Part shown: piece by piece, positions 7,938-60,876 of the stretch
Layout: every line of letters begins with the position of its first letter
How positions within the stretch are numbered: position 1 is the stretch's first letter
Source of the DNA: Aphanomyces cochlioides
Taxonomy: Eukaryota; Oomycota; Saprolegniomycetes; Saprolegniales; Verrucalvaceae
Reading direction: 5' to 3'
NCBI GenBank assembly: GCA_019828595.1
Contig: JAHQRK010000004.1
Coordinates: 2,728,001 to 2,792,000, forward strand
Length of the DNA stretch: 64,000 bases
Position numbers and translations under genes: made by a program
Notes under the pieces: generated by a model
Databases searched by the model: none
Seen by the model: only the letters and a program-made list of their open reading frames with translations
Told to the model about the DNA's origin: nothing

Positions 7938-7939
7938 AA

Positions 7940-20907: not shown

Positions 20908-21939
20908 TCATGTTTCGTGACAAGGTGACTGGTCTTGGGTGTTGTAGACATGGGACAGAAGTGTCTGGTCTTCGTCATCAGATGGCTGTGGAATAATCTT
21001 GGACGGGGCCATCATCTGGAGAACTCCCAAATGTTGGCTTGACTCATCTTGGACGGGACCAGTGCCATAGGAAATATCCACATGTTGGTTGGACTCATCT
21101 TGGACGGAGCAGATTTCTTGTCTCAATGGCGCGTCATTGTCGGAACATGGGTGCGCTGTGTCCAAATGTTTCTTCGGCCACATCTTGTATCTTGATTTTT
21201 GTATAGGGCGTCTTGGAGTCCACTCGTTGGGTAGTGTGAAATTCTTGAGGATGAGATTGGAGAACTTCCTTGTGGATTTAATGGCTGCGGGTTCATTTTC
21301 CGATTTGCCTGCTGCCCAACACACCGTCAGGCTGCCTCTCCGTTGCCTCGCTTTGGTTGCTTGCCTCTCGTTTGCGTTCCTTCTCGTCCGTGGTTTGGCC
21401 TTGCTTGTCCGACGTTCTTCCCTCTGCCTTGAAGCTCGACCTGCCTCGTTGTATTCCTGCTTTGCGCCACACTTGTTGCTGCGTCTCTCGTGTTCTCCTG
21501 TCTCGCTGTTCGATCGTCGTTGTTGCCGTCGCTGTCGTCTCTGCCGTGTGGCTGCTCGCTTGTCTCTGTCTTGGCCGTGTCGCTGTCTCTGTCGTGTCTG
21601 CCGTGTGGCTGCTCGCTTGTCTCTGTCTTGGCCGTGTCGCTGTCTCTGTCGTGTCTGCTGTGTGATTGCTCGCTTGTATCTGTTGTGGCCGTGTCGCTGT
21701 CTCTGTCGTCTCTGCCGTGTGGCTGCTCGCTTGTCTCTGTCTTGGCCGTGTCGCTGTCTCTGTCGTGTCTGCCGTGTGATTGCTCGCTTATCTCTGTCTT
21801 GGCCGTGTCGCTGTCTCTGTCGTGTCTGCCGTGTGACTGCTCGCTTGTCTCTGTTTTGGCCGTGTCGCTGTCGCTGTCGTCTCTGCCGTGTGGCTGCTCG
21901 CTTGTCTGCTGCTACGATGGGCGTTTCCAAGGAAGAATT
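20908..21939 (-). CDS. Arginine-rich open frame in element C2 (possible ORF3 or remnant)
   Basis: It has the same length and protein sequence as the frame at 3421-4452, including the 19-residue Arg-rich repeat, the VQDES.QH repeats and the acidic C-terminal segment. It likewise has no AUG near its start. Identity with C adds no evidence of selection because the whole element was duplicated recently. Confidence 0.3.
   Translation of the reverse strand, partial: NSSLETPIVAADKRAATRQRRQRQRHGQNRDKRAVTRQTRQRQRHGQDRDKRAITRQTRQRQRHGQDRDKRAATRQRRQRQRHGHNRYKRAITQQTRQRQRHGQDRDKRAATRQTRQRQRHGQDRDKRAATRQRRQRRQQRRSNSETGEHERRSNKCGAKQEYNEAGRASRQREERRTSKAKPRTRRNANERQATKARQRRGSLTVCWAAGKSENEPAAIKSTRKFSNLILKNFTLPNEWTPRRPIQKSRYKMWPKKHLDTAHPCSDNDAPLRQEICSVQDESNQHVDISYGTGPVQDESSQHLGVLQMMAPSKIIPQPSDDEDQTLLSHVYNTQDQSPCHET
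21546..21908 (+). repeat. 57-bp minisatellite in element C2
   Basis: Six full copies and a 21-bp partial one, in the same order of variants as at 4059-4421. The array has not changed copy number since C and C2 were duplicated. Confidence 0.95.
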
Positions 21940-22462
21940 TCAAGACGTTGAAGACATCAAGGCGTTCAAGACTTGGTTTTTTGAAGCTATGGCTCCGAAT
22001 GGCGACCATCCTGTGTACTTCGCTCGTCGGAGGAAGGGGTGGTAGAAGGAGTCTGAACTGCCAGCGATGGGGGCCTTCCTGGAGGGCTCTCTACGCATAT
22101 GGACGTCTTCTCGCAATGACCCCGGTCTGAGGGTAGCGGTTGACTTGCTTCGACATTTTTTGGCCTCAATTCATGGAGCCGGACAGTTCTGCGGAAGTGT
22201 ATGTTGGCTGACTCCCTTCATGCATGGATGCAGGGCTAAGAACCTGGTCAGTTCGTGTCCGTGGAAGTGGATTGAGTGCTTTGGGTTTGCCTCTTTGTGG
22301 GTTTGTCTCTTTATGGCTTTATGCCTTTCGGCCTTTGGCCTTGATTTTGGGTGTCCCTTTCTTTTTACTCCTTTGTTGGAGCCCCCGGGGGTAGCGGTCA
22401 AGTCAAGACTTCGTCGGAAAAGGAGGTTTGGCGACTTTGGCTTTGATGACTTGTTTGTGTAG
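21918..22462 (+). pseudogene. Coding-like remnant opposite to LINE C2
   Basis: Copy of 4431-4975, with the same in-frame TAG (22043-22045). The following 22463-22927 is T-rich, without a gene, and carries the 11-bp deletion. Confidence 0.25.
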
Positions 22463-22927
22463 GGTGGCGAGCGCGCGCGATATTTGCTTTTTGTGTTTGT
22501 TGGCGATCAAGTTTGGCGATTTTCGACTTCAAGAAAGCGCGAAGAAACGTGGGGGTTAGCACACGAGCGCAGCTATGGGCGGCCCGTTCACCAACTTTCG
22601 GTAAGTTTCTTCTTTGTCTTTGTGGCTTGACTTTTGCTTAGTTTGCTTTTGGTTTGCGACGAAACCTTCTGAAAATCGCTAAGTCTTCAAGAAATTTCAC
22701 GCGAAGCGCTGCCCAAATTCTTAATTTTGTAATTCAGCCTTGAATTACCAATTTTTCTTGTGTTTTTTGGTTTGATTTCAAGTTTGCCTTGGCTGCAAGT
22801 AAGTTGGTCAGCTAGAATCACTTCTAACTTGAAAATTTAGTTTGAATTTGCATTGGATCGATCAAGTTCAAATCCACTCTTGAAATTTGGAGCGACTTTA
22901 TGTTGGCTGAAGAAGGCGAGTCGATTT

Positions 22928-25413
22928 TTATGAAGTTGATCCTCCGCGTCCATGACTTGCAAACGCCTTGGTATGTCGTTTGAAATATTCCTTGTATTGA
23001 GTTTGTCGTTTTAGGACAACAAGAATGCGGTTGACGGTTTGGAGCGTCTGCTCATCGTTATTTTGACGAAGCCATCGGCGGACGTTTGAACTCCAAAACG
23101 TGAACGCGATGTCATTGAGAGCAGGTATGTATGGTGTTGGAGCATTGTCGAATTTGACTCGGTTGCGGTGTGTCCATAGGAGATGAAGGATGGTGCACAT
23201 CAACATGAACCATAACTGGTGCAACAAGTCCTTGTGCGGAGACCAACGCCTTGCGACTTGAAAGGAGTCAAGATTTTCAATCCAATCCCAACTGAAGCGT
23301 ACTCCGAATGGACCCCAAGCTTCTCTGTGAGGTAACCAAACACTGCGGATCCGTCGGCAATCCATGAATAGATGCTGCTTAGTCTCGCGTTCGTAGCACT
23401 GGGGATAGCAGCATTGTACAGCATTGGGGTGAGCAGATTCCATGAATCGAAACTTGTCGCTAACGGGAAGAATGTCATAGATAGCACGAAACCAAACGTC
23501 CGCCTGAACTGGTGTAACAATCTTGGACAATGGCTTGACGTATCTCGACAGGTAAACGCTGATCGTTTTCTTGTCTGGTCTCATTGATGTTTCTAGGGGA
23601 TGCTTCTTCGTCATTGGCGGTGCATGGAAGGTTATCTGCTTCAGTATCTTGGCTGTCCAGGAACAGAAAGGTATGTCTTGTTCATTGTGTCGAAAGACAA
23701 TGAAGCTTTGTTGTTCAGGACTACGTGGAACTGCACCTGCAACCGGCACGTCAGCCTGAGTCCAAACATCGGTTGCCATTGAGGTCAAGAGCTTGTAGAA
23801 GTGTTGGAAACTCGTTGGAATTGGTGAGTCATCGACAAAGTCGTCTTCGAGTGCGGTCATCATGGCTTTGAATTCGTCGTAGGTTGGCCATGTCCTTGTT
23901 GGAGTCAAGAAATCTTGCAAGCTTTGAAAGCCACTGCGGGCCAAGTGACGATACCAATCGCGATGATTTTTCAACTTGATCGCCAAGGAAGACGTCCCCT
24001 CTCGACCGGACACTTGGAACAGTGGGTGCGACGACAACCAAATCGGCATTTGGATCATCTGATGAATTGTAGGTTCATGTGGCGTTTTGGCAGTCATTGG
24101 AATTTTGGCCCAATGCTTCCAAATGTCTTGCCATAATGGCGACAGCAAATTGCGTTGGACAAGCTTGTTGTTGAGCGATGGATGGTATACCAAGAAATCC
24201 CACCGATCATTACGAGAATATGGGCTCATACATCGGCGCAATCGATCTGAAGGTAAAATTGCCCACGATTGCGATGTATCATGCTCCTCTTTGACTAGAA
24301 GCTGGAGCCGTATGAGTCGTTGTTTGCGAATAGTTGAGGCTATGTGAGGCACTTTCAAGCCAATTTTTGGGTCGTGCACAAGGCCACCAGCAGCAAGAGC
24401 CAGATATTTTTCTGTCGTTTGAGTCCTGCGACTGAGAACAAATTTGTTCACCATGGATTGCCACTGCTGAATGGTACTGTCTTGAATTGGTAAAACCATG
24501 GTGTAATGCCACAACTGTGATAGGAGCATGGTGTTTACGAGTAATCTTCGACCTTTGATCGTTCTCGCTCGACACGCCCAAGTGGTGAAGGATTTGTAGA
24601 ACTTGTCGGTGATGGTTTTGATTTGTAGGTTTGGATCCAAGTTATGACCTAGGTGGATGCCCAGATACTTGACTGGAAATCCACTGGGAACCATATTCAA
24701 TCTCGGGTGGTGGACAACGGGCTGTTTGCTGTCGAGAGTGAGTACTTTGCTTTTGCTCCTGTTTAACTTGGCACCAGAGTGACGACAAAACTTGTCGACA
24801 AGTTGCAATTGCGCTTCAAGGTCTACCAGAGATCCAGAAACAAGGGTTGTGTCGTCTGCGAACAAGAGGACCGAAGCGATCCCTCCTTCTGCGTTGGAAA
24901 AGGCCAAGCCGCGCTCCGGGTGGTTGCGCAACAATTGTGCAAGTGGCTCGATCGTCATCACAAACAACATTGAAGACAAAGGGTCGCCTTGCTTGACTCC
25001 CCGCGTTGGATGGAACGGCTGTGTAAGTTCTCCATTGATGTTCAAACTTACTTTGGTGTCTTTGTAGAGGAGTTTGATCCAGTTAATAAAGTTGTCTCCC
25101 ACATTAAACTTTTGGAGTACTTGATACATGAAGTTGTGGTTCACGCGGTCATAAGCTTTCTCGAAATCCAAGAACATGGCGTAAGCTTCTTCACTGAATA
25201 TTGTGCAATAATGCTGAAGATCTTGAAGGAAAATGACGTGATCATGAATACGTCTGCCTTTGACGAATCCATTTTGCTCTGGTTGGATGATACTTGGCAA
25301 TACATGCGATAGCCTGTAGGCCAAAGCTCTCGACAAGACCTTCACCTCCACTGGAATCAATGCAATGGGACGATAGTTGGCGGGATTCCGACGGTCGCCG
25401 CCCTTGAAGAGCA
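22928..25413 (-). pseudogene. LINE reverse transcriptase (ORF2, 5'-truncated), element C2
   Basis: Same frame as 5452-7937, 828 codons, with RT motifs A (LDFEKAYD), B (RGVKQGDP) and C (FADD) and the C-terminal zinc-knuckle-like CYPQC...H....C all present. It lacks the endonuclease and start. Two residues differ from C (Leu for Phe after ERG, Pro for Ser after RRWS). It could not mobilise itself, having no ORF1 and no endonuclease, although the catalytic RT residues are intact. Confidence 0.9.
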
Positions 25414-25415
25414 AA

Positions 25416-25488
25416 GCCCGTCTAGCTCAGTCGGTAGAGCGCAAGGCTCTTAACCTTGTGGTCGTGGGTTCGAGCCCCACGGTGGGCG
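25416..25488 (+). tRNA. tRNA-Lys(CTT): tRNA-Lys (CTT), array copy 15
   Basis: Identical to copy 1, rebuilt at the 5' end of C2. Unit 1069 bp. Confidence 0.97.
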
Positions 25489-26484: not shown

Positions 26485-26498
26485 GCCCGTCTAGCTCA
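26485..26498 (+). pseudogene. tRNA-Lys stub left by element D'
   Basis: First 14 nt of the tRNA (gcccgtctagctca), followed at 26499 by the D-family 3' end (atgtcaatgggg). The intact partner is at 26890. Confidence 0.95.
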
Positions 26499-26887
26499 AT
26501 GTCAATGGGGAGTCTATTTGTAGTTAATGTAAACTACAAACTAATATTGCCCGAAGGCTCATCCCATTTCCAACTGCTAGGCTGAATTGGAAATCAATTT
26601 GGCTTTTCGTTTTCTTGATTCGCTTCGACGTTGGGACTTCGATTTCTTCGGTGTTTGTAAGCTAACACGGCGAATATGTCGGATAATACTGACTCTTGGC
26701 ATCTGACCCAGGGGGTATACATTTTCATTGTCTTGGATCATACATAGACTTCGGTCTATGCAGCGCTTGTATCGCTTGGCGAGGACCCAGCAATGGGATG
26801 TTGAATCAGTGACAGAAACAACCAGGAATTCTCCGTCAGGCTCATCCAATATCGCTCTACAGATATCACGAATTGGATCACCCACCG
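26499..26887 (-). mobile_element. LINE element D', extreme 5' truncation (389 bp)
   Basis: It corresponds without gaps to the 3' end of element D (37615-38003), with three substitutions that I find. It keeps the 3' stem-loop (26517-26540) and the last part of ORF3. It is flanked by the tRNA duplication (26484-26498 and 26889-26903). Since its truncation point differs from D, it is an independent insertion of the same family into the same site. Confidence 0.95.
26577..26887 (-). pseudogene. ORF3 C-terminal fragment (element D')
   Basis: About 103 codons matching the end of the D ORF3. It retains the HCW segment with the candidate catalytic His, the QDNE segment with the candidate Asp and the basic tail KKSKSQRRSESRKRKAK. 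The candidate Cys is lost with the 5' part. There is no AUG start. Compared with D, it has Pro for Ser near the break and Ile for Phe before RHIRR. Confidence 0.85.
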
Positions 26888-26889
26888 AA

Positions 26890-26962
26890 GCCCGTCTAGC
26901 TCAGTCGGTAGAGCGCAAGGCTCTTAACCTTGTGGTCGTGGGTTCGAGCCCCACGGTGGGCG
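26890..26962 (+). tRNA. tRNA-Lys(CTT): tRNA-Lys (CTT), array copy 16
   Basis: Identical to copy 1, rebuilt at the 5' end of D'. Unit 1068 bp. Confidence 0.97.
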
Positions 26963-30056: not shown

Positions 30057-30070
30057 GCCCGTCTAGCTCA
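30057..30070 (+). pseudogene. tRNA-Lys stub left by element B
   Basis: First 14 nt of the tRNA, then the B-family 3' end (ctgcaatggggag). The intact partner is at 34484. Confidence 0.95.
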
Positions 30071-30073
30071 CTG

Positions 30074-30150
30074 CAATGGGGAGGTATATTAATAGACTTT
30101 CAATATCTACTAATACTAATATTGCCTACTAACGGCTCATCCCACTTCCA
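30074..30150 (-). other. Element B 3'-terminal stem-loop and conserved tail
   Basis: In the element-sense RNA 30115-30106 pairs with 30096-30087 over 10 bp (one G-U), with a 9-nt loop. The tail CCCCAUUG at 30081-30074 and the inner block AAUAUUA/GGCAAUAUUA (about 30115-30125) are shared with D, whereas the stem sequence is different. This pattern suggests a 3' structure kept for reverse-transcriptase recognition. Confidence 0.6.
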
Positions 30151-30227
30151 AATGCTTCAGCAGATTTTCTACTTTGGGCTTTGGAGTACAGCGATTTTTG
30201 ACTTGTTGAATAAATACTTGGGGCTTG

Positions 30228-33200
30228 TTAATTTGGGGCTGAAGGTTGGAGCGCGAGCAAAGTCGGGTACTTGGCTACCAGTGGGCGATAGACAGGTTGT
30301 CTATGCAAAGTATTGATTGCTGAAATTGCTTCCACTCGTTGAGGGCTGTCAACTTCTTGGAGGCGAAGCCATCTGCGGATCGATGCATGCCATCGGATGA
30401 AGCTGACTTCTTGCCAAATTTCTGGCGGAGGCGGCTCCTTCGATTCGAACTTGGCGGCGTTGTGCGTTGTCCAAATATAGTGAAGGTTGGAAGCACACAG
30501 AAGAGCCCAGAGCACAAACAGTATGTCTTGAAGCTGGCTACCGCGTTCGTTGACTTGAAAGCGGTCGATGTTGGTGATGGCAGTCCAATCGAAATTGACA
30601 CCGAAGCATCGCCAAGCGGTCGCGTGAAAACGCCAAAGGGGATACACGCGAGAGCAGGTGTGGAAGGCGTGGTGTTGGTTCTCCGGTGCGTCGCAATTGG
30701 TATAGACACAGCAAATTACGTCTGGCTGCTGAGGTTGCAAGTAGAACAAGCGCGAGTTGACAGGCAGCATGTTGAACAACAGTCGAAACCAAACGTCGCC
30801 ATGGAGGGGAGGCGGCCAACGGCATGTTTTGCGGATGAGTCGCACGTAGGTCGCAATATCTTGTTGCTCGACGCGGGACGATGTCGCCACTGGGTGCGGT
30901 TTTCCATCCGAAGGGGCGTGATGCGCCAAACGTGATACGAGTCGCTTGGGCCAACGCTCGAAGGATAGCAATTGATCTTTGAAAAGTGCCTTGAAAGGGT
31001 GACTTGTTGTATCGATATCGGTCAAAGCAGTTCCAGTTCGAACGCCAGACGTGCGGAGGACTTGGTCGAATATCTTGGTGAGGTGGCTATAAACTTGACC
31101 AGCACGTTCGGGTGCTGCAAATCCCATCGCGCCGTTCGCTTGTAACGTCACTTGTGCCGCACGGTTGTTGGATGACAGTCGATCAATAAACGCAGCTCTT
31201 GTAGGCCATGTCCCTTGCCGTGTCAAGAAGTCTTTGAGGCAGTGGAAACCGTTTTGAGACGCATGTCTACACCATCGACGACACAGAGCAGTCTTCACGA
31301 CATTTGATGTAGCACCCGCAGGACCAACTTGCAGAGCGGGGTAGGATGTCAGCCACACGGGGAGGTTCAAAAGTTCTTCGAGGCTTGGTGGCGAAGCGGT
31401 TCGCTTGGCCATAGGTGTGGCGGCCCATTGATGCCAAATGTCGTGCCAAAGAGGATGCAGCTCCCACAAAAACAACCACTTGGAGCTGTGGTTGGGGAAG
31501 TACGTGAGAAAGTCGAACGGGTGGGTGTCGCGATACAGCTTGTTCATGACACGGGAAAATTGTCTCTTGACAAGCAACTTCCATGGGGCAAATGTGTTGG
31601 GTGAATTGGGCTGCATCAAGAGTTGGAGCCGCAGCAGTCGCTGAGTCCGAAGCTTCGAAGCCACATGCGGAATACCGAGGCCGAGTTTTTGATCGAACTG
31701 CCACTTGCGGCAAATAGTTGAGCGATGATGGTCGGTGATTTGCGTCTTCCGACCAAGGATGTACTTGTTGACCATTCTTTGCCAAACGGCAACCATCGTT
31801 GGAGGCACATACACTGCAGCCGTGACATGCCATAACAACGACAACAACATGGTCGATACGATGAGTTTGCGGCCTTGGAGGGTTCGCGCACGACTTCCCC
31901 ACGTTTGAAACGCAGCCAGAAACTTGTCGTTCAGTTGCTGGACTTGAAAATCGCGCGGCAGTCGGTGGCCAAAGAGAATACCAAGGTATTTCACTGGCTT
32001 CTCGCTCGGCAAGACGTTCAAGAGGCCACCATCGTCGATGTCTTCGATATCGAGATTGTTGTTGAGCGCCAAAGTCATGCACTTGGCAACGTTGAGACGA
32101 GCTCCAGACACAGAGCAAAAGTCTTCGACAATTGCCATTTGCTCGACCGCCGCTTGGAGGGATGACGAGAGTAGAGTCGTGTCGTCGGCAAAGTAGATGC
32201 TCGTCAGTGAGTCTCCATTTGGAAGGGGAATACCAAAATCAGGAGATCCGCGTAGCATTTCGCCGAGTGGCTCGAGGTAAAGTACGAAGAGCATGCACGA
32301 TAGGGGGCAACCTTGCTTGACTCCGCGGGTAGGCCGTATGGTAGGGCCAAGACCGTCGTTGAAAATGATCTGGACCAGAGGCGTATTGTAAAGCAACTGA
32401 ACCCAAGACACAAATGTGGGACCGATGTTCATCTCCTTGAGTACGTCGAAGAGAAAGCCTTGGTCAACCATATCGTATGCCTTGGAAAAGTCGAGAAACG
32501 TCGCGTAGTAGTCGTGGTCTTCATTGGTACAGAAAGTCTGCAATGCTTGTACCAGCATCACGTGGTCGTGCAAGCGACGGCCAGGGACAAAACCAGCTTG
32601 GCTTGGGTGAGCGAGGTATGGGGCAACTTGTGCAAGACGGTAGGCCAGCGCCCGCGATAGAATCTTGACTTCAACCGACATGAGAGTAATCGGCCGATAG
32701 TTGCCAGGGTCGCCTCTGTCTCCAGCCTTGAACAAGAGCGCCACTGCACTTCGGCGTTGTTGGAGCAGGAGGTGACCGTGATGGGTGAGTTGGTAGTTGA
32801 ACACCTTGAGCAGGATTTGGGCGAATACGTCCGGGGAGACTTGAAAGAAAGCTGCAGGCCAGCCGTCTGAACCAGGAGACTTGTTCGGGTTCATAGACTT
32901 GAGCGCGCCGCACAGGTCTTCCGCCGTGAGAGGACTTTCCAGAGCGTCGCGCTGTTCTTGAGTGAGACGTCGAGTAATGGCTCGAATGATAGCTCGGCGA
33001 CGGGCCCGATTCAACGGTGGTTGGTCTCTTGGAGTGACCATGATGTTTTTCCAATGAGACGTAAAACCAGCCTTGACTTCAGACGGGTCAGTCGACGTTG
33101 CACCGTTGATTGTCACGGACGAGAGCGGCACTTTGATCCCCTTGGGTCGACGAAAAAAGTGACTGGTACCTCGCTCGTTGACGTTGGCGTGAAAGTCGAA

Positions 33201-34382
33201 TTGCTGATCCAGGTTGAACTGTCGGTACTCGCTGCGGGCAGTGTCAAGGGCTTGACGGGCGGTATTAACAATGGATGTCTCAACGAGTCCCATGTCGAAT
33301 GCTCGGCGGGAAGTAAGCCACTTCATCTTGAGGCTGTTGAGTGTGTACTTCATCGAGTCAATGTACTGGCGATGACTGACTTGGAGACGCTTCTTCATTC
33401 TCTTCAACCAGCCGTACCACTTTGCGCCAAAGTTTTGAGTGTCGTCTGCGCGCATCTCGTCCAAAAGTTGATTGGCTTCGGCCTTGATCGCTGCGACTAC
33501 TTGAGGGTTCTTTAAGAGCTCACGGGGGAGGCGCCAGTAACTTCGGTCGGGAGCTCGCTGCTCGCAGGAGAGGACCACTTTGTGTTCCATGTGGTCGCCT
33601 GCAAAGCTGCTTGGGGAATAGCTTGAACGTGCGTACGTTTGAGCGACGATATCTTGGTCCACAAACAGGTAGTCGAGGCGGTTGCTTCGACCAGGGCCGC
33701 TGTAAACGCGCTCGTTGGGGTGGTGCATCCTCCACGCATCGATAACACCAAGTGCTGAAAGCCAGGCAATGCATTCCGCCTTACCAGCGTTGTGGTCTTG
33801 GCGAGGTCGAGTCGCGTCCAGATGCTCCTCCAGGGGTAAGTTGAAATCGCCTCCGACAAAGTGAATGCTGTCGTCTTCAAAGTCGCGAGGCAGATCGTCG
33901 AAAAACGGTGCTCGAGAGTGAGCGATAACCGGGGCATAGACGTTGTGAAAGTACACAGGAACGCCGTCCCACTGAGTTCGAACAACCATGTATCTTCCAG
34001 GTCGGTCATGGGTGGTCAAGTGTTGCAGGTCGAGGAATCCAGGCATGGATCCATGGAAATACGATGCCACACCGCAGCGCCGATTGTTGAGTGAGTCGAC
34101 GCGATCAGTGCGGAGATCGTTGGTGAAGAGCTTGTATTTGCCAACGCCTACTTCGTTGTTGAGGTGGAGTTGGAAGGTTTCGAGATGTTTGATGTTATTG
34201 ATTTTGGTTTCTTGAAAGAAAACGGCTTGGGTCGGAATTTGGAGTCGCCGCGCCACAAGATGTCCGTTGTCTTTCAGCCCATTGAGGTTGGCAGTGGTCA
34301 GTTCGAGTATGGGGAACTTGGTGAAGAGACCGGCCGCGACCACCTTAGCCACGGAACGCGACAGACGTTGCGTTCGCAACAT
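30228..34382 (-). CDS. LINE ORF2: APE endonuclease and reverse transcriptase (element B)
   Basis: An intact 1384-residue polyprotein that nicks the target and copies element RNA onto it. The APE domain (about 25-272) has ANLNG (Asn 32/34), QETK (Glu 58), VYAP (Tyr 149), GGDFNLP (Asp 179, Asn 181), SNRLDYLFV (233-241) and AGDHMEH (Asp 263, His 264), so all catalytic positions are present. The RT domain (about 500-810) has SPGSDGWPAAFF, motif A LDFSKAYD (Asp 631), motif B TRGVKQGCP, motif C YFADD (731-734) and KYLGILFG. A zinc-knuckle-like C....C...H....C lies near 1225-1243. The ATG at 34382 overlaps ORF1 by about 38 nt in the +1 frame. D has no matching ATG, so its use is uncertain. The frame looks functional. 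Confidence 0.95.
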   Translation of the reverse strand: MLRTQRLSRSVAKVVAAGLFTKFPILELTTANLNGLKDNGHLVARRLQIPTQAVFFQETKINNIKHLETFQLHLNNEVGVGKYKLFTNDLRTDRVDSLNNRRCGVASYFHGSMPGFLDLQHLTTHDRPGRYMVVRTQWDGVPVYFHNVYAPVIAHSRAPFFDDLPRDFEDDSIHFVGGDFNLPLEEHLDATRPRQDHNAGKAECIAWLSALGVIDAWRMHHPNERVYSGPGRSNRLDYLFVDQDIVAQTYARSSYSPSSFAGDHMEHKVVLSCEQRAPDRSYWRLPRELLKNPQVVAAIKAEANQLLDEMRADDTQNFGAKWYGWLKRMKKRLQVSHRQYIDSMKYTLNSLKMKWLTSRRAFDMGLVETSIVNTARQALDTARSEYRQFNLDQQFDFHANVNERGTSHFFRRPKGIKVPLSSVTINGATSTDPSEVKAGFTSHWKNIMVTPRDQPPLNRARRRAIIRAITRRLTQEQRDALESPLTAEDLCGALKSMNPNKSPGSDGWPAAFFQVSPDVFAQILLKVFNYQLTHHGHLLLQQRRSAVALLFKAGDRGDPGNYRPITLMSVEVKILSRALAYRLAQVAPYLAHPSQAGFVPGRRLHDHVMLVQALQTFCTNEDHDYYATFLDFSKAYDMVDQGFLFDVLKEMNIGPTFVSWVQLLYNTPLVQIIFNDGLGPTIRPTRGVKQGCPLSCMLFVLYLEPLGEMLRGSPDFGIPLPNGDSLTSIYFADDTTLLSSSLQAAVEQMAIVEDFCSVSGARLNVAKCMTLALNNNLDIEDIDDGGLLNVLPSEKPVKYLGILFGHRLPRDFQVQQLNDKFLAAFQTWGSRARTLQGRKLIVSTMLLSLLWHVTAAVYVPPTMVAVWQRMVNKYILGRKTQITDHHRSTICRKWQFDQKLGLGIPHVASKLRTQRLLRLQLLMQPNSPNTFAPWKLLVKRQFSRVMNKLYRDTHPFDFLTYFPNHSSKWLFLWELHPLWHDIWHQWAATPMAKRTASPPSLEELLNLPVWLTSYPALQVGPAGATSNVVKTALCRRWCRHASQNGFHCLKDFLTRQGTWPTRAAFIDRLSSNNRAAQVTLQANGAMGFAAPERAGQVYSHLTKIFDQVLRTSGVRTGTALTDIDTTSHPFKALFKDQLLSFERWPKRLVSRLAHHAPSDGKPHPVATSSRVEQQDIATYVRLIRKTCRWPPPLHGDVWFRLLFNMLPVNSRLFYLQPQQPDVICCVYTNCDAPENQHHAFHTCSRVYPLWRFHATAWRCFGVNFDWTAITNIDRFQVNERGSQLQDILFVLWALLCASNLHYIWTTHNAAKFESKEPPPPEIWQEVSFIRWHASIRRWLRLQEVDSPQRVEAISAINTLHRQPVYRPLVAKYPTLLALQPSAPN

Positions 34383-34482
34383 CTCCCAGCATGAGTGTCT
34401 GAGTGTCGGGTTGGAACATCACTTGGTTGTCGAAGGTGGGGTCCAGGGAGCCAGCCTCATGGAATTCCAGGATCGTGGTCAC
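34345..34482 (-). pseudogene. ORF1 C-terminal tail (element B)
   Basis: The last 45 codons of ORF1, aligning with the end of the D ORF1 (VTTILEFHE for MTKILQLHE; NQVMF in both; both end RG then TAA). It overlaps the start of ORF2. The conserved junction reads CGTGGCTAA in both families. Confidence 0.85.
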
Positions 34483-34483
34483 A

Positions 34484-34556
34484 GCCCGTCTAGCTCAGTC
34501 GGTAGAGCGCAAGGCTCTTAACCTTGTGGTCGTGGGTTCGAGCCCCACGGTGGGCG
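34484..34556 (+). tRNA. tRNA-Lys(CTT): tRNA-Lys (CTT), array copy 19
   Basis: Identical to copy 1, rebuilt at the 5' end of element B. Unit 1052 bp: two 39-bp segments, 17-bp block absent, C variant. Confidence 0.97.
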
Positions 34557-36677: not shown

Positions 36678-37600
36678 CTTCTTTTGCTCTTTTTGGGTCC
36701 CAGACATACATTCCTCTCACACACAATCCCCACTTTTTAAAACACTTGATCCCTCCAACTGCAGCTTCTTTGTCTGACAATACCTCCGTCCTTCCAAGCC
36801 TTCACTCCACGACTATGTGATATGGTCGACTATGTGATATGGTCGACTATGTGATATGGTCGACTATGTGATGGAGTGGTCTACACAATACCGTCGAGGA
36901 TGTGATGACGGTCGAAAACATGATACCGTCGAGTCTGGGATATAGTGCGTGTGAGTCCACGAAGTTCACGGTGCAATGGCATACGTCATTTCGTGCAGCG
37001 CGTGAGACGGTGGAAAAGTGTGAAAACGTATAGTCAGTCTGTGAGGCAGTGACGTATGTGACGAGGTCGGATAAATGGCGGAGTTTGTGCCACTGTAGAA
37101 TATGTGATTCAGTGCTGCATGTGAAGAGATGGAATGCGTGATACGTGACTCGGTGGCGCCACGGATAAGTTGGCGTATGCGATATCGTGGCGTCTACGAT
37201 GCGGTAGAGTGTGTGGTGGAGTAGACTTTGTGAGTGGAATATATGTTGTGTATGATGGCGTGATGTCTGTGACGCAGTGGACAATGTGATGCGAGGTTGA
37301 TACGTTGGAGTCCTTGGTGGATATATGTGCCTTCCTAGGCAGGTTGGGAAGCTGTCGAGTTGAACAACCGTAGGACTTGGTATAGAACGTGTGTAATGCA
37401 TGGCGTCGTCATCGAATGGAATGGTTGTGGTGGAAAAGTAAGTTGTGATGTGTGTCGTTTGTCTGTGAGCATGATTTGGTGCGTGGTATGAGTTGGTGAA
37501 TACTTTTGTGTCGGAGGTCGGTACTGAGTGTCCCCTGCGTTTTGAGTGTGACAGTGTTCTGGAGTGTGTTGTATGTATGGAGTGTGTATGTCGTCAGGAA

Positions 37601-37614
37601 GCCCGTCTAGCTCA
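37601..37614 (+). pseudogene. tRNA-Lys stub left by element D
   Basis: First 14 nt of the tRNA followed by the D 3' end. The intact partner is at 45748. Confidence 0.95.
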
Positions 37615-37618
37615 ATGT

Positions 37619-37689
37619 CAATGGGGAGTCTATTTGTAGTTAATGTAAACTACAAACTAATATTGCCCGAAGGCTCATCCCATTTCCAA
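37619..37689 (-). other. Element D 3'-terminal stem-loop and conserved tail
   Basis: A perfect 9-bp inverted repeat, tttgtagtt (37633-37641) and aactacaaa (37648-37656), with a 6-nt loop. It is followed in the element sense by CUCCCCAUUG, as in B. The stem has no sequence similarity to that of B, but its position and flanks are the same. D' keeps it at 26517-26540. Confidence 0.65.
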
Positions 37690-37692
37690 CTG

Positions 37693-38907
37693 CTAGGCTG
37701 AATTGGAAATCAATTTGGCTTTTCGTTTTCTTGATTCGCTTCGACGTTGGGACTTCGATTTCTTCGGTGTTTGTAAGCTAACACGGCGAATATGTCGGAT
37801 AAAACTGACTCTTGGCATCTGACCCAGGGGGTATACATTTTCATTGTCTTGGATCATACATAGACTTCGGTCTATGCAGCGCTTGTATCGCTTGGCGAGG
37901 ACCCAGCAATGGGATGTTGAATCAGTGACAGAAACAACCAAGAATTCTCCGTCAGGCTCATCCAATATCGCTCTACAGATATCACGAATTGAATCACCCA
38001 CCGATTGCTTGAGCAGTTGACGGGAGAATATGGCGTCGTTGTAGTGGAATCCATGTGTGTATGCCAGCTTGAGAAAATCATGCATCTTGGAAGGGGGAAT
38101 GCCCGCGTCTTGAGGAACTCCATGGGCCTCTTTGAAACCCGAAATGACTTCTTCGCTGAGCTCAAAATTGGAGACATTCAAATTGGTAGCAACGATTCGG
38201 ATTGCAGCCGCAAGACAAGATTTGTCACTGTTGTTGCCAATTTCTAGCCACAGAGGATCCATCGCTCGAAATTCAGCAAGCGTTGGGGCGAGACCAGTGT
38301 TCGTGAGGAAGTGGGCTCCAGCTTGTCGCCATCGTTGGTACATCGCCACGGCTTCTTGACACCCGCTGAGGTCTTTTTCGTCGAACCAGTCTTTGTCGAG
38401 TCCATCCGGGCGTTGAAACTTCCAGTTGACTTGGTATTGAATAGTTGAAATTCGATTTCGCATTGATGCCACTTCGCGGTGGTCATCGATAAACAACACT
38501 TCATCGATGTCATCATCGTCGGTTGGAATTCGCAGAGTGCGTGGGCGGTTGGTTGGGGCATCAGCCGTTGTCGCATTCGTTTGTGGCCTGGCTGGAACAG
38601 AAACATCGTCCAATAGATCCATGAGGGATGGTAGCGGAGATCCATTGTCATTGCCCAAGGGGTCAAATTCGCGGGTGCTCGAGTTCAAAATGGACATATC
38701 AGGAGTAAATTGGTGTTCTTCAGTTGTAACTGGACTTGAAGGACGAGTGTCGGATGATTGCGTCATAGGTACAGAAATCTCAACTCCATCCACTCCCTCA
38801 AGAGTAATCCCTGGAGACATCGAGCTCCCCACACCTCGTGTAGTTATGGGTCTCGACGTCTGCGCGGGGAGTACGCTATCGGCAGTGAAAATCGTTGAAG
38901 CTTCCAT
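37693..38907 (-). CDS. ORF3 protein: chromodomain-like segment, papain-like C/H/D pattern, basic tail
   Basis: 404 codons from the first ATG (38907); the open frame extends to 39090 without an earlier AUG. Numbering the residues from the TTG at 39069 (458 in all), the N-terminal 180 are Ser/Thr/Pro-rich. Residues 190-250 read IDEVLFIDDHREV...YQVNWKFQRPDG...WFDEKDLSGC..AVAMYQRW, which resembles a chromodomain (Y.V.WK, W, L..C). Next come SDKSCLAAAI (Cys 285), STSHCWVLA (His 387) and MIQDNE (Asp 408). Their order and hydrophobic settings suit a papain-fold cysteine protease such as OTU-like families. The tail KKSKSQRRSESRKRKAK is a likely nuclear localisation signal. Chromodomains normally bind methylated histones. 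Both assignments come from pattern reading alone. The frame is intact. Confidence 0.65.
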   Translation of the reverse strand: MEASTIFTADSVLPAQTSRPITTRGVGSSMSPGITLEGVDGVEISVPMTQSSDTRPSSPVTTEEHQFTPDMSILNSSTREFDPLGNDNGSPLPSLMDLLDDVSVPARPQTNATTADAPTNRPRTLRIPTDDDDIDEVLFIDDHREVASMRNRISTIQYQVNWKFQRPDGLDKDWFDEKDLSGCQEAVAMYQRWRQAGAHFLTNTGLAPTLAEFRAMDPLWLEIGNNSDKSCLAAAIRIVATNLNVSNFELSEEVISGFKEAHGVPQDAGIPPSKMHDFLKLAYTHGFHYNDAIFSRQLLKQSVGDSIRDICRAILDEPDGEFLVVSVTDSTSHCWVLAKRYKRCIDRSLCMIQDNENVYPLGQMPRVSFIRHIRRVSLQTPKKSKSQRRSESRKRKAKLISNSA

Positions 38908-39120
38908 TGTTGTTGTCTTGGGTAAAATCAAAAGTGAGTCTTGGAGAATTGTTTTGAGATTCTCACTGAACTTATTCTCAGTTGCGACACTTGAGTCAGG
39001 CACGATTTGATTGGGCAGTGAAATGTTTTGCGCGGATCGTGAGTGATGGTCGCCAGGATTCCCAATCAAAAATTCAGCTGGGATACCAAGTCAAGAATAC
39101 AGCTGGGGCTTGTAATCAAA

Positions 39121-42100
39121 TTACTGGTGTTCAACTCGAAAAGACATGGGATATTTTTCGAATAGCTCGTTGTATCCAGCTTGAGAGAAAAGGACTGAGA
39201 CCGCTTCGATGATGTTTCGATAGTCGAAGTCGTCAGGCGAGAGCAAACGAATTGTTCGCCTGATGGAAGCTGTCCAACTGACAAATATAATCTCGTTCCA
39301 TAGTAAAATCGGTAGAGGCCTTTTGCCATCGAACTTGGTTGCATTTCTTTGAGTCCATAAGGAGTACGTGATGGAAGCACAAAGGAGGGACCATAATTTG
39401 AATAATGCGTCATGCAGGTGTTTTCCTCGCGTATTGGTCTTGAAGCGACTGATATTCGTGGTGGTTGCCCAATCAAACTTAACACCATAAGCTCTCCATG
39501 CTCGCTCTTGGAACATCCAAACTTGATGTACATGATGACATGTATGGAAGGCATGATGAAAAGTCTCAACATCCGAGCAATCTTCATAGACACAACAAAT
39601 AGCGTCAGGGTTTTGGATCTGCATATAGGAAAACCTCGAGTTGACGGGTAACATCTTCATGTGCAATCGAAACCATACATCGCCTTGAACAGGTGGAGGT
39701 AGATTACACACAGTACGAATGAGACGGATATACTTTGCTATGTCTTTGTCAGTTCTTGTCGTAGTCTTCATAGGATGTATAGCTTCAGTCTGGGGGGCGT
39801 GGTAAGCTAAATGCACCACGTTTTTCTTGGGCCACGACTCGAAAGGTAAATCAGCATCCTTGATTCTGGCTGTAAACGGATGTTGACAAGTCGGGACATT
39901 AGGCAGTGGCGACCCTTGCCGAATGTCAAACGATCGAACAACTTTGTCGAAGATTCGTGTGAGTTGATTGTAAATGTCGGTTGTGCGGGGCAATGTGGCA
40001 AAGTCCATGACTCCGTCCTGGTTTAGACAAACTTGGGCAGCTGGATTGTTCGACGACATTCGGTTCACGAACATGGTCTCTGTTGGCCAAGCACCATGTG
40101 GGGTCAGGAAATCCTTCAGGCATCTGAGACCATTTTTGGCCCCGTGGCGGCACCAGAGACGCATGTCTTCATCTTTCACGACATTTGCTAACATCTTAGC
40201 AGAGCCGAAGTGCATTGCGTCGTAGGCTGTGAGCCATACCGGGAGGTTCAGTACCGTGTCGAGATTTGGAGGCACGCCGATTCGCTTACTCATGTCTGTG
40301 GCTGACCAATGTTTCCAAGTATCAAGCCACAGTGGATGGAGCTCGCGAAGCAAAAGCCACTTGGAGCTTGCATTTGGGTAGTATGAAAGAAAATCGAATG
40401 GGTGACTGTCTCGGAATAACTGATGTATTGTGCGGCTAAATTGTCGCTGTACAAGTTTCTTCCACACCAGGATTTCACCAGGAGAATCGGCAGACATAAA
40501 GAGCTGTAAACGAAGAAGGCGTTGTGTTCGCAGCCTCGATGCAATGTGGGGGATTCCCAAGCCTAAAGGCTTGTCGTACTGCCACCTTCTATGGATTGAG
40601 GGACGGTAACTCTCATCGAGCTGGGTCTTGCGGCAAAGTATGAACTTGTTTAACATTTGTTGCCACGTAACGACCATAGCAGGAGGCACAGGTACAACGG
40701 CTGTTACATGCCACAACATAGATAGCAACATCGTGGAGGCAATAAGCTTTCGGCCCTGCAATGTCCTTGCTCGTTTACCCCATAGTTGAAAGGACGAGAT
40801 GAATTTGTCGTTGAGTTTTTGAAGTTGGGAGTCAGCCGAAAGTCGATGGCCAAAGAGAATACCAAGATATTTCGTACACTGACCAGTTGGTACGATATTG
40901 AGCAAACCATCTGCTTCGATGTCTTCTTGATCGAGATGGTCGTTGAGAACCAAGGTCATGCACTTGGAACGATTCAGACGGGCCCCTGAAGCCGTGCAAA
41001 ACTCTTCCACAATTGCCATTTGCTCCACAGCAGATTGCAGCGAGTTTGATAACAACGTCGAGTCGTCGGCAAAGAATATACTCGTAATAACTGAGTCGTG
41101 GGGGAGAGCGATTCCAAGATGTGGGGACGCTCGGAGCATCTCACCAAGAGGTTCGAGGTATAGGACGAACAGTAGGCATGATAAAGGACAGCCTTGTTTG
41201 ACGCCTCGGGTAGGTCGGATCTTAGGGCCAAGCTCGCCATTGAAGATGATCTGGACCAAAGGTGAGTCGTACAAAAGAGCTACCCACGCAATGAAACCTT
41301 CACCAGTGTTGACTGCTCTCAGCACATCAAGCATGAATTCTCGATCCACCATGTCGTACGCTTTCGAAAAGTCAAGGAATGTTGCATAGTAGTCGTGATC
41401 TTCGTTGGTGCAAAACGTTTGCAAAGTTTGCACAAGCAGGACGTGGTCATGCAGCCGTCGTCCTGGGACAAAGCCAGCTTGACTTGGGTGAATGAGATGA
41501 GGAGCTACTGTAGCCAGGCGATAAGCGAGGGCACGGGATAGTATCTTCACCTCCACTGACATGAGTGCAATAGGTCGGTAGTTTCCAGGATCGCCTCGAT
41601 CACCAGCTTTGAAAGCAGAGCCACAGCACTACGCCTTTGTTGAAGGAGTAGTTTACCGTGGTGGTGAAGTTGGTAGTTGAAGACCCTGACCAGGATTTCG
41701 GAGAAAGCCTCGGGTGCTACTTGGAAGAAGGCCGCTGGCCATCCATCAGGACCAGGAGACTTGTTTGGACTCATTGTCTTGAGAGCACTACACAGCTCGG
41801 CTGCTGTGATAGGTCTGTCTAGCTCCTCGCGTTGCTCATCATTGAGTTTGCGGGAGATAAACCGTATGACAGCCCTCCGCCTCGCCCGGTTTAGCCGAGG
41901 TTGTTCGCCACGAGTGGTAGTCATTATTGCCTTCCAATGGGCAGTGAATCTCTCTTTGATAGTGGTAGGATCAGACACGGGAATGCCATCGACGTTGACC
42001 GTCGTGATAGGAACCTTGAGTCCTTGTGGCCTTCGAAAGAAGTGGCTCGTACCGCGTTCGTTGACATTTGCATGAAAATCGAATTGCTGATCCATGCGGT

Positions 42101-43259
42101 ATTGGCGATATTCGATTCGTGCGTTTTCCAGCGCCAACCGAGTAGCATCAACGGCAGCCTCGTCGAGCAAGCCAGCTTCGTATGATCGTTGTGCAGATAT
42201 ATGTCTCAGTTTTAGGCTTTTGAGCTCGTGTTGCATGGATTGGAGGTGGTGGCGATGACATTGTTGTAAACGTCGTTTGATTCGCTTAAGCCACCCATAC
42301 CAGACGGCTCCCATGTTTGTCGATTCGTCCGCACGCATCTCAGAGAGGAGGTGTGATGCCTCTTCTCGTATGGCTTTGATGACGAGCGGGTCTTTGAGTA
42401 GCTCTCTCGGCAGCCTCCAGTAGCCACGGGTCGTGGGTGTATGACTTGTAGAGAGAACGACAGTGTGCTCCAAGTGATCTCCGGCAAAGCTGTTAGTGGC
42501 ATATTTTGAGCTTTGGTAGGATTGGGCAACTAAATCTTGGTCAATGAACCAGTAGTCCAGACGATTGCTTCGTCCTGGACCGCTTGCCAGTCTTTCGTGA
42601 GGGTGGTGTAGGCGCCACGCGTCGATGACTCCTAGTTGTGACAGCCAGGCAAGACATTCGACTTTTCCAAAGGTGTGATCTTGCCGTGGTTTGGAAGCAT
42701 CGAGGTGTTCGTTGACAGGAAGGTTAAAATCTCCCCCAACCAGGTGTACACTGTTAGCTTCAAAAGCGCGAGGGAGACTGTCAAAGAAACTAGCCCGATG
42801 TTGAGGGGTAACTGGCGCGTAAATGTTGTGGATGTAGACTGGGGTTTCATCCCAGTACGTTTTGATCACAATATAACGGCCAGGGATATCGTGTTGTGAT
42901 AAGTGCACCAGGCTTGAGAATCCAGGCATCGATTCGTGAAAGTATGATGCAACGCCACATCGACGGTTGTTCAAATTGTCCGTGCGGGTTGTTCGTAAGT
43001 CGTTGGTAAAAAGTTTGTACTTGCTAACACCCACTTCGTTGTCGAGGTGAGTGTGGAAAGTGTCAAGATGTTTTGCGTTGTTGAGTTTCGTTTCTTGAAA
43101 GAGAACAGCTTGTGTCGGTTTCCGAAGACGCCGTGCAACAAGATGTCCGTTTTCTTTCAGCCCATTGAGGTTGCTCGTCGTCACTTCAAGTATGGGGAGC
43201 TTGACAAAATGACCAGCCGCGACCACTTTAGCCACGGGAAGCGATCGTTGTGAGATCCG
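39121..43259 (-). pseudogene. LINE ORF2: APE endonuclease and reverse transcriptase, one frameshift (element D)
   Basis: About 1380 codons. The APE part has SNLNG, QETK, IYAP, GGDFNLP, SNRLDYWF and AGDHLEH. The RT has SPGPDGWPAAFF, motif A LDFSKAYD, motif B TRGVKQGCP, motif C FFADD, then SGARLN and KYLGILFG. A zinc-knuckle-like C....C...H....C is near the end. One base is missing near 41609-41614, in the codon after SAVALL, compared with element B; this breaks the frame just before RT motif 1. The frame opens after a TAG at 43262-43260, overlaps the end of ORF1 by about 30 nt in the +1 frame and has no AUG until about residue 100, downstream of the catalytic Asn and Glu. ORF2 must therefore be expressed by coupling with ORF1, by frameshifting or from a non-AUG codon. 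Confidence 0.9.
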
Positions 43260-45693
43260 CTAGGTCGCCGTGAATTAAAGTAGGTTCGCTTGGGTGAAAC
43301 ATGACTTGATTGTGGAGAGTGATATCCAAATCGTTGCTTTCGTGTAGTTGAAGGATTTTTGTCATGATGTGACACATCGATTCTCCGTCGCCAGTGTACA
43401 TGAATTCCATTCTGTTCCATATGTGGAGGCCAAGGTCGGTGTACATCAGGAGTGACATGAGCGTTTCGGAGGATAGACTGCGTTTACCAAGGCGAGAGGG
43501 TAACGCTGTCACTGGACTTTTTGTTGAGGCCAAAATTGCCGCATCGCTATTGAAATATAGTGGAGCATGAACTGCCATCAATACTTCTGCAATGGCCAGC
43601 ACTTCTTCGACTTCAACTCTGTTGAGGACGATGTCATCATCGGTGATGATTGCCTCGATGAGTGGGAGGTTGTTGACCATCTTCTGGTCACTGAACACCG
43701 AGATCACGTGGTCGTGAGTGATTGGAGTGCCGAATGTTGCCTCGTAGAGCTGACCAAAAGATTTTGTGCCACCACCAGACGCTCTTAGCCAACGATTAAG
43801 CAGTCGAAGACGAACAAAGTATTCGAAGCTGTCACGATTGGAGACAAAAATTTGGTGCAGTTGCAGTCCAAATTCGATTGGCGCACGTTCTAGATGGATG
43901 CAGATCGTGTCAACACGCCCGTCCGTAATCAATTTCAATAAGTTGAAGGAATCGTGCGCTAACGCTTCCTTAACTTGGGCCGGGATATGTTGTGGTGCGT
44001 TTTGAGCCTTGGTGTCAAGGTCGTTGAGCTCGGCAAGTATGGCATCGAGAGACTTCTCAAACCTTTGGATTGAGCCCTCGTGGGGTTTGATCCCGCTAAT
44101 GAACTCTTCAGCGGCAACGTGCACCTTGTCACCAGATTTGAGTGTCAGCTTTGGAACAATTACTTTGACAGTGGTGTTGCCAACTGTCGTTTCGTGTTCC
44201 TCGGGCTCAACATTAGCGCGTTCGTCCAGAGCCGCAAACATGTTCGGGGAGATCCAGGGACGATCAGGAGCTGGGATTGAGCCAGCGGAGATTGGGGTTT
44301 TCTTTCTTTTGCCTGTAGTTTGAACTTCAGTCCATTCCTTGTTGCTGTCTCGGGTCGTTTTCTGCCGTTTGGCAGTGGATGTCGAGACAGCGGCGTCTCC
44401 CCGTGGGCGGTGAGGGGTTGCGTGAAGTCCATGTTGGGTGGCGATTACATCGAGGTCAAGGCGCGCGAGCTTCTTGTCACGGTAAAACCATCCTTGACCA
44501 AACACGCGGAGGCACCGACCCTTGAAAATGAATTCTTCAATTGATCGACCGTCATTGTGCATAGATTCGGGTATAGCTGTCCCTTCAAAATACAAGCGAT
44601 AACGAGAGCTAGCCAAGCCAGTCGTCGAGGAAACTGTGGAGTATGAGCCCCACAAAAAGCGTGGCTCAAGCTTTGACATGATGCTGAACATGAGACGTTC
44701 TTCATCCTGTCCTTGGAGACCAGATGGGATATCGATGAAATATCCATCAAGTATATGGGGCTCAGTCATGACAAATCTCTGAGAGCTGCCATCCTTTGCC
44801 ACTTGGATCTTGAGAGAGACTCCACGCAGCTTTTTAAGAGCATCTTCAGAGGCTATGCCCCACTTGAGAAGACGATTGGAGACATCTTTCTCGCACTTGA
44901 TGACATCGACAAATGCATCGTCCAAATCAAGCGCTTGGTTGTCAAACAATAGAGATGTCATTGCCTTGGAGATGTCGATGTATTTGGTGTATTGGCCAGT
45001 GGACATTTGTAGCCAGCCAACAACATCTCTGGGGGAATGTTTTTGGATGGGCAAAGTGTCGTCAAACGTGAGAGATCCTGTCGCGCGTTTTTGCAACAAG
45101 GACGCCAGCTCGGCCATAGTTGGTCGATAATGGCCGACGTCACTGTTCCGCTGAGCCTTGGCAGATTTAGCTCTCTGCTTGGCTTGGAATTCCCACACGC
45201 ATTCGTTTGGCTTTTTGGTCGAGGTGTTCGACTCGGGTGGTATTGGCACGGAGCGTGTTGTAGCAGGAGGCGAGGCATCGATTTGAGCTTCAGGCTCCAT
45301 TTCCACATCAACATTGGTGTCGCGAATCGATTGGTCTTCAGAGCGCGGCTCCAGCTCAGTGGCTTGAGTAATCGGTGGGGTATGTGGTTGGTTGTTGTTG
45401 GAGATATCCTCTATGTCTTCATCAGGCATCGGAGAAACATTATCCTTGTTGACAGTTTTGTCGCTGGTACGAGCGCTTGGTAATGGCACGCGACCACCGA
45501 GTGTAGCAAGACGTATGGGCGGTTGAGCAGCAGGCGGAGTTTTGTCGATGATTGAGTCAGGTTCATCGTCATCATCATCGTCAACAATCACCTCCATGAT
45601 ACTAGAAGCGTCCGAGGTATTGCGAAAGGGAGAGGCAGAAAAAGCTGAGGGCTTGTGTGCATGAGCACGGCTGGAAGAGCGGGTAGTCGCCAT
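43228..45693 (-). CDS. LINE ORF1 protein, complete (element D)
   Basis: 821 residues from the ATG at 45693, which follows the conserved 5' UTR, to TAA at 43228. Residues 1-160 are acidic and Ser/Pro-rich (a run of seven Asp at 38-43 and nearby), probably disordered. W-E-F-Q-A-K-Q-R...PTMAEL (167-196) is shared with element A. Residues 310-410 (GYFIDIPSGL, EERLMFSIMSKL, SRYRLYFEG, GRSIEEFIFKGRCLRVFGQGW) have the alternation of strands and helices of an RRM-like RNA-binding module; this is inference. A basic patch KRQKTTRDSN...GKRKKTP follows near 445-475, and the C-terminal half is helical with no motif I know. No CCHC zinc knuckle is present. It probably packages element RNA with ORF2. Confidence 0.85.
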   Translation of the reverse strand: MATTRSSSRAHAHKPSAFSASPFRNTSDASSIMEVIVDDDDDDEPDSIIDKTPPAAQPPIRLATLGGRVPLPSARTSDKTVNKDNVSPMPDEDIEDISNNNQPHTPPITQATELEPRSEDQSIRDTNVDVEMEPEAQIDASPPATTRSVPIPPESNTSTKKPNECVWEFQAKQRAKSAKAQRNSDVGHYRPTMAELASLLQKRATGSLTFDDTLPIQKHSPRDVVGWLQMSTGQYTKYIDISKAMTSLLFDNQALDLDDAFVDVIKCEKDVSNRLLKWGIASEDALKKLRGVSLKIQVAKDGSSQRFVMTEPHILDGYFIDIPSGLQGQDEERLMFSIMSKLEPRFLWGSYSTVSSTTGLASSRYRLYFEGTAIPESMHNDGRSIEEFIFKGRCLRVFGQGWFYRDKKLARLDLDVIATQHGLHATPHRPRGDAAVSTSTAKRQKTTRDSNKEWTEVQTTGKRKKTPISAGSIPAPDRPWISPNMFAALDERANVEPEEHETTVGNTTVKVIVPKLTLKSGDKVHVAAEEFISGIKPHEGSIQRFEKSLDAILAELNDLDTKAQNAPQHIPAQVKEALAHDSFNLLKLITDGRVDTICIHLERAPIEFGLQLHQIFVSNRDSFEYFVRLRLLNRWLRASGGGTKSFGQLYEATFGTPITHDHVISVFSDQKMVNNLPLIEAIITDDDIVLNRVEVEEVLAIAEVLMAVHAPLYFNSDAAILASTKSPVTALPSRLGKRSLSSETLMSLLMYTDLGLHIWNRMEFMYTGDGESMCHIMTKILQLHESNDLDITLHNQVMFHPSEPTLIHGDLADLTTIASRG

Positions 45694-45746
45694 GTTGTCA
45701 GTTTTGGACAGTGGTACTGCGGGGTAGCTGGCAAATTGGAAACTGC
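45694..45746 (-). promoter_or_regulatory. Element D 5' UTR (53 nt)
   Basis: 49 of its bases equal those of element A (1147-1195). It ends ACAAC-ATGG, a fair Kozak context. In the sense RNA CAGUUU at its 5' end can pair with AAACUG. It lies immediately upstream of the rebuilt tRNA gene in head-to-head orientation. Confidence 0.6.
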
Positions 45747-45747
45747 A

Positions 45748-45820
45748 GCCCGTCTAGCTCAGTCGGTAGAGCGCAAGGCTCTTAACCTTGTGGTCGTGGG
45801 TTCGAGCCCCACGGTGGGCG
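45748..45820 (+). tRNA. tRNA-Lys(CTT): tRNA-Lys (CTT), array copy 22
   Basis: Identical to copy 1, rebuilt at the 5' end of element D. Unit 1013 bp: three 17-mers, 17-bp block absent. Confidence 0.97.
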
Positions 45821-60705: not shown

Positions 60706-60719
60706 GCCCGTCTAGCTCA
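60706..60719 (+). pseudogene. tRNA-Lys stub left by element E
   Basis: First 14 nt of the tRNA followed by the B/E-family 3' end. The intact partner would lie beyond the right edge of the window. Confidence 0.95.
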
Positions 60720-60722
60720 CTG

Positions 60723-60799
60723 CAATGGGGAGGTATATTAATAGACTTTCAATATCTACTAATACTAATATTGCCTACTAACGGCTCATCCCACTTCCA
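60723..60799 (-). other. Element E 3'-terminal stem-loop and conserved tail
   Basis: Identical to 30074-30150 of element B: a 10-bp stem with one G-U pair in the element-sense RNA, then CCCCAUUG. Confidence 0.6.
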
Positions 60800-60876
60800 A
60801 ATGCTTCAGCAGATTTTCTACTTTGGGCTTTGGAGTACAGCGATTTTTGACTTGTTGAATAAATACTTGGGGCTTG

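Follow-up and report, generated by a model that had tools for sequence, protein, structure and literature searches.

How can a retrotransposon insert time after time inside the internal promoter of a tRNA gene and leave a complete gene beside it? This question is raised by a 64,000-nucleotide (nt) stretch of the Aphanomyces cochlioides genome (hereafter the window), which lies inside a tandem array of tRNA-Lys(CTT) genes of about 315 kb, with units near 1 kb, and holds several long interspersed nuclear elements (LINEs). The window corresponds to C34:2728001-2792000, C34 being our label for the contig that contains it, and all counts given below concern this one genome of one species (76.2 Mb searched, in 94 contigs). 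Large tandem tRNA arrays were already known in oomycetes (PMC9584435). Here, all 156 forward genome copies of the tRNA-Lys 14-mer GCCCGTCTAGCTCA fall within C34:2486172-2800012, a single reverse copy lying elsewhere, and the array comprises 125 exact 73-nt genes plus five variants.

The LINE copies of the Lys array run antisense to the tRNA and begin directly after its nt 14, within box A (TAGCTCA^GTCGG). Six of the 42 exact 14-mers in the window (100 shuffles gave none) are followed by a LINE 3' end in place of GTCGG, and a tRNA-Lys starts immediately at the five right ends of these copies that lie in the window, as it does behind a further LINE entering from the left (Table 1). The preliminary description had reported these six left junctions, with a complete tRNA at the right-hand ones; both observations stand, the sixth right junction being located just outside, at C34:2796046. 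Across a contiguous 332 kb (C34:2480001-2812000), 27 junctions between the 14-mer and a LINE are present. At their right ends, we found 23 exact 73-nt tRNA-Lys genes, two 14-nt remnants followed by another LINE, one variant tRNA with a mutated box A (C34:2510149) and one deletion. An exact gene thus stands at 23 of the 25 readable right ends, bearing out the proposal that the gene is rebuilt on insertion. At a 28th junction, on the right edge of the array, the 14-mer is mutated and a LINE fragment begins exactly 14 nt past the tRNA start.

The duplication that flanks each insertion had been placed at about tRNA positions -1 to +14. Among the 25 copies with a readable right end, a count that omits the complex copies at C34:2507322 and C34:2511152, where the next 14-mer lies away from the LINE end, it measures 14 bp in 13, 15 bp in nine, 16 bp in two and 17 bp in one. 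The 14-17 bp range is therefore retained, with 14 bp as the commonest length. No copy falls below 14 nt, the limit under which the duplication would cut into the mature tRNA. For full-length copies it is 14 bp in 13 of 17 and 15 bp in the other four; in the eight 5'-truncated copies, the shared sequence always includes at least the A at -1.

Since these junctions were found through the 14-mer itself, the placement after nt 14 would be circular, and the count was therefore also made from exact LINE 3' ends throughout the genome. For the C family (n = 221), TAGCTCA stands directly before 184 ends and TGGCTCA before 33 (TRGCTCA in 217/221); for the B family (n = 203), the figures are 151 and 49 (200/203); for the D family, TRGCTCA precedes 67 of 77 ends. 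With equal base use assumed, this motif is expected by chance at about 1.2e-4 per site. All 484 counted junctions have one orientation, the LINE sense strand being the tRNA antisense strand, and copies of these families at unrelated sequence are rare at most.

The choice of tRNA-Lys as the target in the preliminary description was correct for this array and too narrow for the genome. Left flanks of B and C copies elsewhere carry TAGCTCA in 19 of 19 cases, behind several different tRNA-like 5' ends, and eight of eight further flanks carry TRGCTCA, four of them as TGGCTCA (three in a Met array on C78, one on C15). In seven of 12 stretches aimed at right ends beyond the Lys array, the LINE 5' end is followed by a tRNA start; the other five, aimed like the rest by a calculation for full-length copies, contain no LINE 5' end. 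The seven comprise tRNA-Phe(GAA), tRNA-Met(CAT), two tRNA-Ala genes (CGC, and AGC with an unusual 3' half), a tRNA-Tyr represented by its 5' part and, in two cases, a 14-nt remnant that runs into a further LINE. The LINE abuts tRNA nt 1 or the position one or two bases before it. We read the Tyr gene as such from its apparent GTA anticodon; it has an apparent intron, was not called by ARAGORN and scored 27.8 bits with Rfam (cut-off, 29). Six tRNA species were thus read at insertions (Lys, Phe, Met, Tyr, Ala-AGC and Ala-CGC), and the target is box A rather than tRNA-Lys alone.

Rebuilt genes are hit again. Coordinates show that, of 59 insertions in two arrays, Tyr on C13 and Phe on C15, 30 extend at full length to tRNA nt 1, with a tolerance of 6 nt (three copies lying far from the arrays on these contigs, two of D and one of B, are not counted); 18 of the 30 reach an intact box A and 12 meet a 14-nt remnant and then another LINE. 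Such remnant-then-LINE ends indicate that rebuilt genes are targeted anew and that LINEs stack, as on C15, where a C copy at 234102 is followed by B copies at 241442 and 249586 and then by the tRNA. On C1, C12, C23 and C36, at least 10 of 41 insertions, including the single site on C12, extend at full length to a tRNA that Rfam identified, 63 of 5429 tRNA candidates having been scored for this pairing. On C23 and C36, the tRNA genes form inverted pairs about 1 kb apart, and LINE copies occur there in both orientations.

The proteins place these elements among the LINEs with an apurinic/apyrimidinic endonuclease (APE). Their second open reading frame (ORF2) encodes an apurinic-like endonuclease followed by a reverse transcriptase (RT): the C-family protein matches Pfam RVT_1 (E = 3.4e-34), the Exo_endo_phos match of B and C is weak and below the Pfam cut-off, and a profile of 18 ORF2 proteins is collinear with human LINE-1 ORF2p across endonuclease and RT (E = 3e-94). 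LINE-1 ORF2p is also the nearest solved protein, ahead of R2, and the endonuclease part carries GDFN, LDY and GDH, which we take to be its catalytic motifs. Truncated copies with common 3' ends and duplications of 14-17 bp are marks of target-primed reverse transcription (TPRT). The Lys array contains four 3'-end families. Full-length copies are 99.6-99.99% identical within B and within C; B and C share about 65.6% of their DNA sequence and 64% of their ORF2 residues, and D ORF2 is 37-38% identical to either. ORF2 is open over 1379 codons in five of the nine full-length B copies of the array, the copy in the window not being one of them, and the 34 best of 1699 candidate genome matches to the C protein, those that were scored, have no internal stop. 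Named close relatives of the LINE proteins come from Aphanomyces, Thraustotheca and Achlya, and others from metagenomes.

Taken together, B, C and D are very probably APE-type, LINE-1-like elements that integrate by TPRT into box A of tRNA genes, which are rebuilt in the process; family E probably belongs to the same group. From the orientation and the logic of TPRT, the ORF2 endonuclease would nick TRGCTCA^G, between A14 and G15, on the coding strand of the tRNA, and the LINE RNA would be reverse transcribed from the 3' end of A14, the first cDNA extending the coding strand; a LINE made in this way would lie antisense to the tRNA, the orientation that is observed. The junctions suggest that the second cut, on the other strand, would fall at tRNA nt 1 or one or two bases before it. 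The resulting stagger of 14 bp or slightly more would span nt 1 to nt 14, so that the duplication would supply the missing 5' part of the gene. What is seen beside the LINE 5' end is a complete tRNA gene with both internal promoter boxes, and a 14-nt remnant stays behind. In read-through LINE RNA, the terminal stretch would be complementary to tRNA nt 14-1 and could anneal to the primer strand. The rebuilt gene would again be a target, and stacks, such as those observed, would form behind one complete tRNA gene. Since a new insertion would enter the intact gene, the newest LINE should adjoin it.

On a broader level, we consider it likely that this lineage has matched its stagger to the distance from nt 1 to A14, that any tRNA gene with TRGCTCA in box A serves as a self-renewing landing pad, that the order of a stack records the order of insertion and that the strategy is old, the target being common to families with only 37-38% identical ORF2.

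Several observations weigh against this account. Of the 501 exact 3' ends, 17 do not directly follow an exact TRGCTCA, the single one that was read coming after the full 14-mer plus an extra GTGTACA, and the counts cover exact 3' ends, copies with changed 3' ends falling outside them. The Lys-array copy at C34:2511152 has no right junction, which was lost by deletion. For 14 of the 41 insertions on C1, C12, C23 and C36, there is no listed same-strand tRNA in reach, or a LINE lies between. Finally, the D copies at 3220 and 20707 of the window (4720 and 4709 nt) have one truncation point.

Site choice might be imposed by RNA polymerase III (Pol III) factors such as TFIIIC and TFIIIB bound to active tRNA genes, as for Dictyostelium TRE5-A, instead of by an endonuclease that reads box A. 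Box A is a TFIIIC site, all flanks that we read resemble Pol III genes, and TRE5-A depends on Pol III factors and requires the B box (PMC5391098). The single-base precision and the one orientation in 484 of 501 cases argue against it, as does the placement of TRE elements at approximate distances outside the gene (PMC5006619), and we regard targeting by Pol III factors in its place as unlikely. A combined mechanism, in which Pol III factors act together with endonuclease reading of box A, is possible.

The insertions could also descend from one or a few founders that multiplied as the tRNA array underwent unequal crossing-over. Besides the truncation point common to the two D copies, which are probably one event, the near identity of the array units and that of full-length copies within B and within C fit such a spread, and array duplication is possible for some full-length copies. 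As a general cause, we reject it as very improbable. Insertions at one and the same base represent four 3'-end families and no fewer than six 5' truncation points; truncated lengths differ (3521, 1001 and 391 nt in B; 5393, 4413 and 1327 nt in C); and genes for Phe, Met, Tyr and Ala tRNAs elsewhere carry insertions, as do isolated sites on C1 and C12. A comparison by exact match covered 24 of the 27 insertions, namely those with an ordinary array unit on the upstream side. Both 900-bp flanks were identical in no pair of the same family, and one flank was in four pairs; a single sequencing error would hide a duplicate from this comparison. Independent events, as first proposed, are thus favored by the different truncations and the insertions in other tRNA genes. 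That the tRNA is a part of the element, carried along at its 5' end, would account for the tRNA or tRNA start at every full-length copy whose right end was read, and is rejected as extremely improbable, since the tRNA changes from locus to locus (Lys, Phe, Met, Tyr, Ala), in agreement with the 14-nt remnant at the site, and 5'-truncated copies too have it exactly at their broken end.

Table 1. Box-A LINE insertions and the tRNA-Lys sequences beside them, in window coordinates
Position	Strand	Feature	Remark
1..1196	-	C-family LINE, 5' part	full-length copy starting at C34:2721873
1197..1269	+	regenerated tRNA-Lys	right of the C-family LINE entering the window
3206..3219	+	tRNA remnant, 14 nt	
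3220..7939	-	D-family LINE, 4720 nt	5'-truncated
7940..8012	+	regenerated tRNA-Lys	
20693..20706	+	tRNA remnant, 14 nt	
20707..25415	-	D-family LINE, 4709 nt	5'-truncated, truncation point as in the copy at 3220
25416..25488	+	regenerated tRNA-Lys	
26485..26498	+	tRNA remnant, 14 nt	
26499..26889	-	B-family LINE, 391 nt	5'-truncated
26890..26962	+	regenerated tRNA-Lys	
30057..30070	+	tRNA remnant, 14 nt	
30071..34483	-	C-family LINE, 4413 nt	5'-truncated; ORF2 open 30228-34382
34484..34556	+	regenerated tRNA-Lys	
37601..37614	+	tRNA-Lys remnant, 14 nt	nt 1-14, left duplication copy; exact 14-mer match
37615..45747	-	B-family LINE, 8133 nt	full-length, 3' end on the left
37693..39069	-	B-family ORF3, 458 aa	no Pfam match
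39121..41562	-	B-family ORF2, RT part	frame break in ORF2 of this copy
41547..43235	-	B-family ORF2, endonuclease part	
43228..45693	-	B-family ORF1, 821 aa	
45748..45820	+	regenerated intact tRNA-Lys(CTT)	
60706..60719	+	tRNA remnant, 14 nt	
60720..64000	-	C-family LINE, 7326 nt	full-length, runs past the window end; regenerated tRNA at C34:2796046

The B family has a third ORF behind ORF2, to our knowledge an unusual feature for a LINE. From stop to stop, it spans 465 codons in seven of nine full-length copies, and 456 and 366 codons in the remaining two. The protein has no Pfam or NCBIfam match, and three relatives were found. Its only four Protein Data Bank (PDB) matches, at E values of 0.87-1.8, are two chromodomain proteins plus MCM6 and CEP192, and its structure model is uninformative (mean predicted local distance difference test score, 35). 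Chromodomain and cysteine-protease identities were dropped on the basis of these weak PDB matches and of the lack of a Pfam or NCBIfam family. An annotated protein (P0046) joins B ORF3 to a stretch resembling the end of C ORF2, and represents either a chimeric element or a gene-model error. The 3' part of D (window 3421-4558 and 20908-22045) is repetitive, with long open frames on both strands as a result, and in full-length D this part matches itself in 57-bp steps. At C34:2519376, a D 3' end follows the full 14-mer and an extra GTGTACA unit, forming a short repeat tail at the priming site. Within the array itself, three adjacent tRNA-Lys genes (C34:2674423, 2675528 and 2676594) may be inactive, as the region of the anticodon arm is tandemly duplicated within them, and another (L017, C34:2564495) has an altered D-arm (GTCGGTCGGAGC).

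Site-specific LINEs usually occupy multicopy genes at the cost of broken copies. A self-repairing break would explain how 501 counted 3' ends exist alongside 735 intact box-A sites of the matching class. These elements offer a system for asking whether an APE endonuclease reads a short site in many sequence contexts, and they are a candidate for RNA-templated insertion that leaves the host gene intact. Their stacks may provide an ordered record of insertions.

A search of open-licence papers, from which absence is weak evidence and which did not extend to Repbase entries, revealed no LINE described as entering box A and regenerating the gene. As judged from these sequences, and with a cleavage step deduced from the junctions, such elements appear new among site-specific LINEs. 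R1 likewise uses a fixed site in a multicopy gene, with a duplication of about 14 bp, and leaves a broken 28S gene; SLACS and CZAR are site-specific within a multicopy gene as well, and the SLACS duplication, at the spliced-leader gene, is a long one. The targets of all three are other than the tRNA box A found here. Prokaryotic integrative elements restore a tRNA gene as these LINEs do, by unrelated machinery: a DNA recombinase with attachment sites that usually lie at the 3' end of the tRNA. The zebrafish LINE Dewa belongs to the Tx1 clade. Dewa resembles the present elements as a non-long-terminal-repeat retrotransposon tied to multicopy tRNA genes; the preliminary description had placed it in tRNA arrays, and the reported site is a tRNA-Leu spacer (PMC3706591). 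The part of that paper dealing with Dewa does not mention gene regeneration. The dictyostelid elements NLTR-A, TRE5 and TRE3 are also LINEs at tRNA genes, and lie outside the gene, TRE5 about 50 bp upstream and TRE3 about 100 bp downstream (PMC5006619), whereas our left junction is inside it, after nt 14. NLTR-A of D. purpureum, 2-6 bp upstream of tRNA nt 1, comes close to our right junctions; the main text of PMC5006619 does not contain the terms "target site duplication," "target-site" or "TSD." The Dada DNA transposons of Perkinsus and fish also insert inside tRNA genes, each Perkinsus family having its own tRNA genes as the target and three of these families showing a putative target site duplication, TAGCTC, in box A (PMC3706591). 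Dada elements use a DDE transposase and make a 6-7 bp duplication, too short for rebuilding a gene, whereas the box-A LINEs encode an RT in ORF2 and duplicate 14-17 bp.

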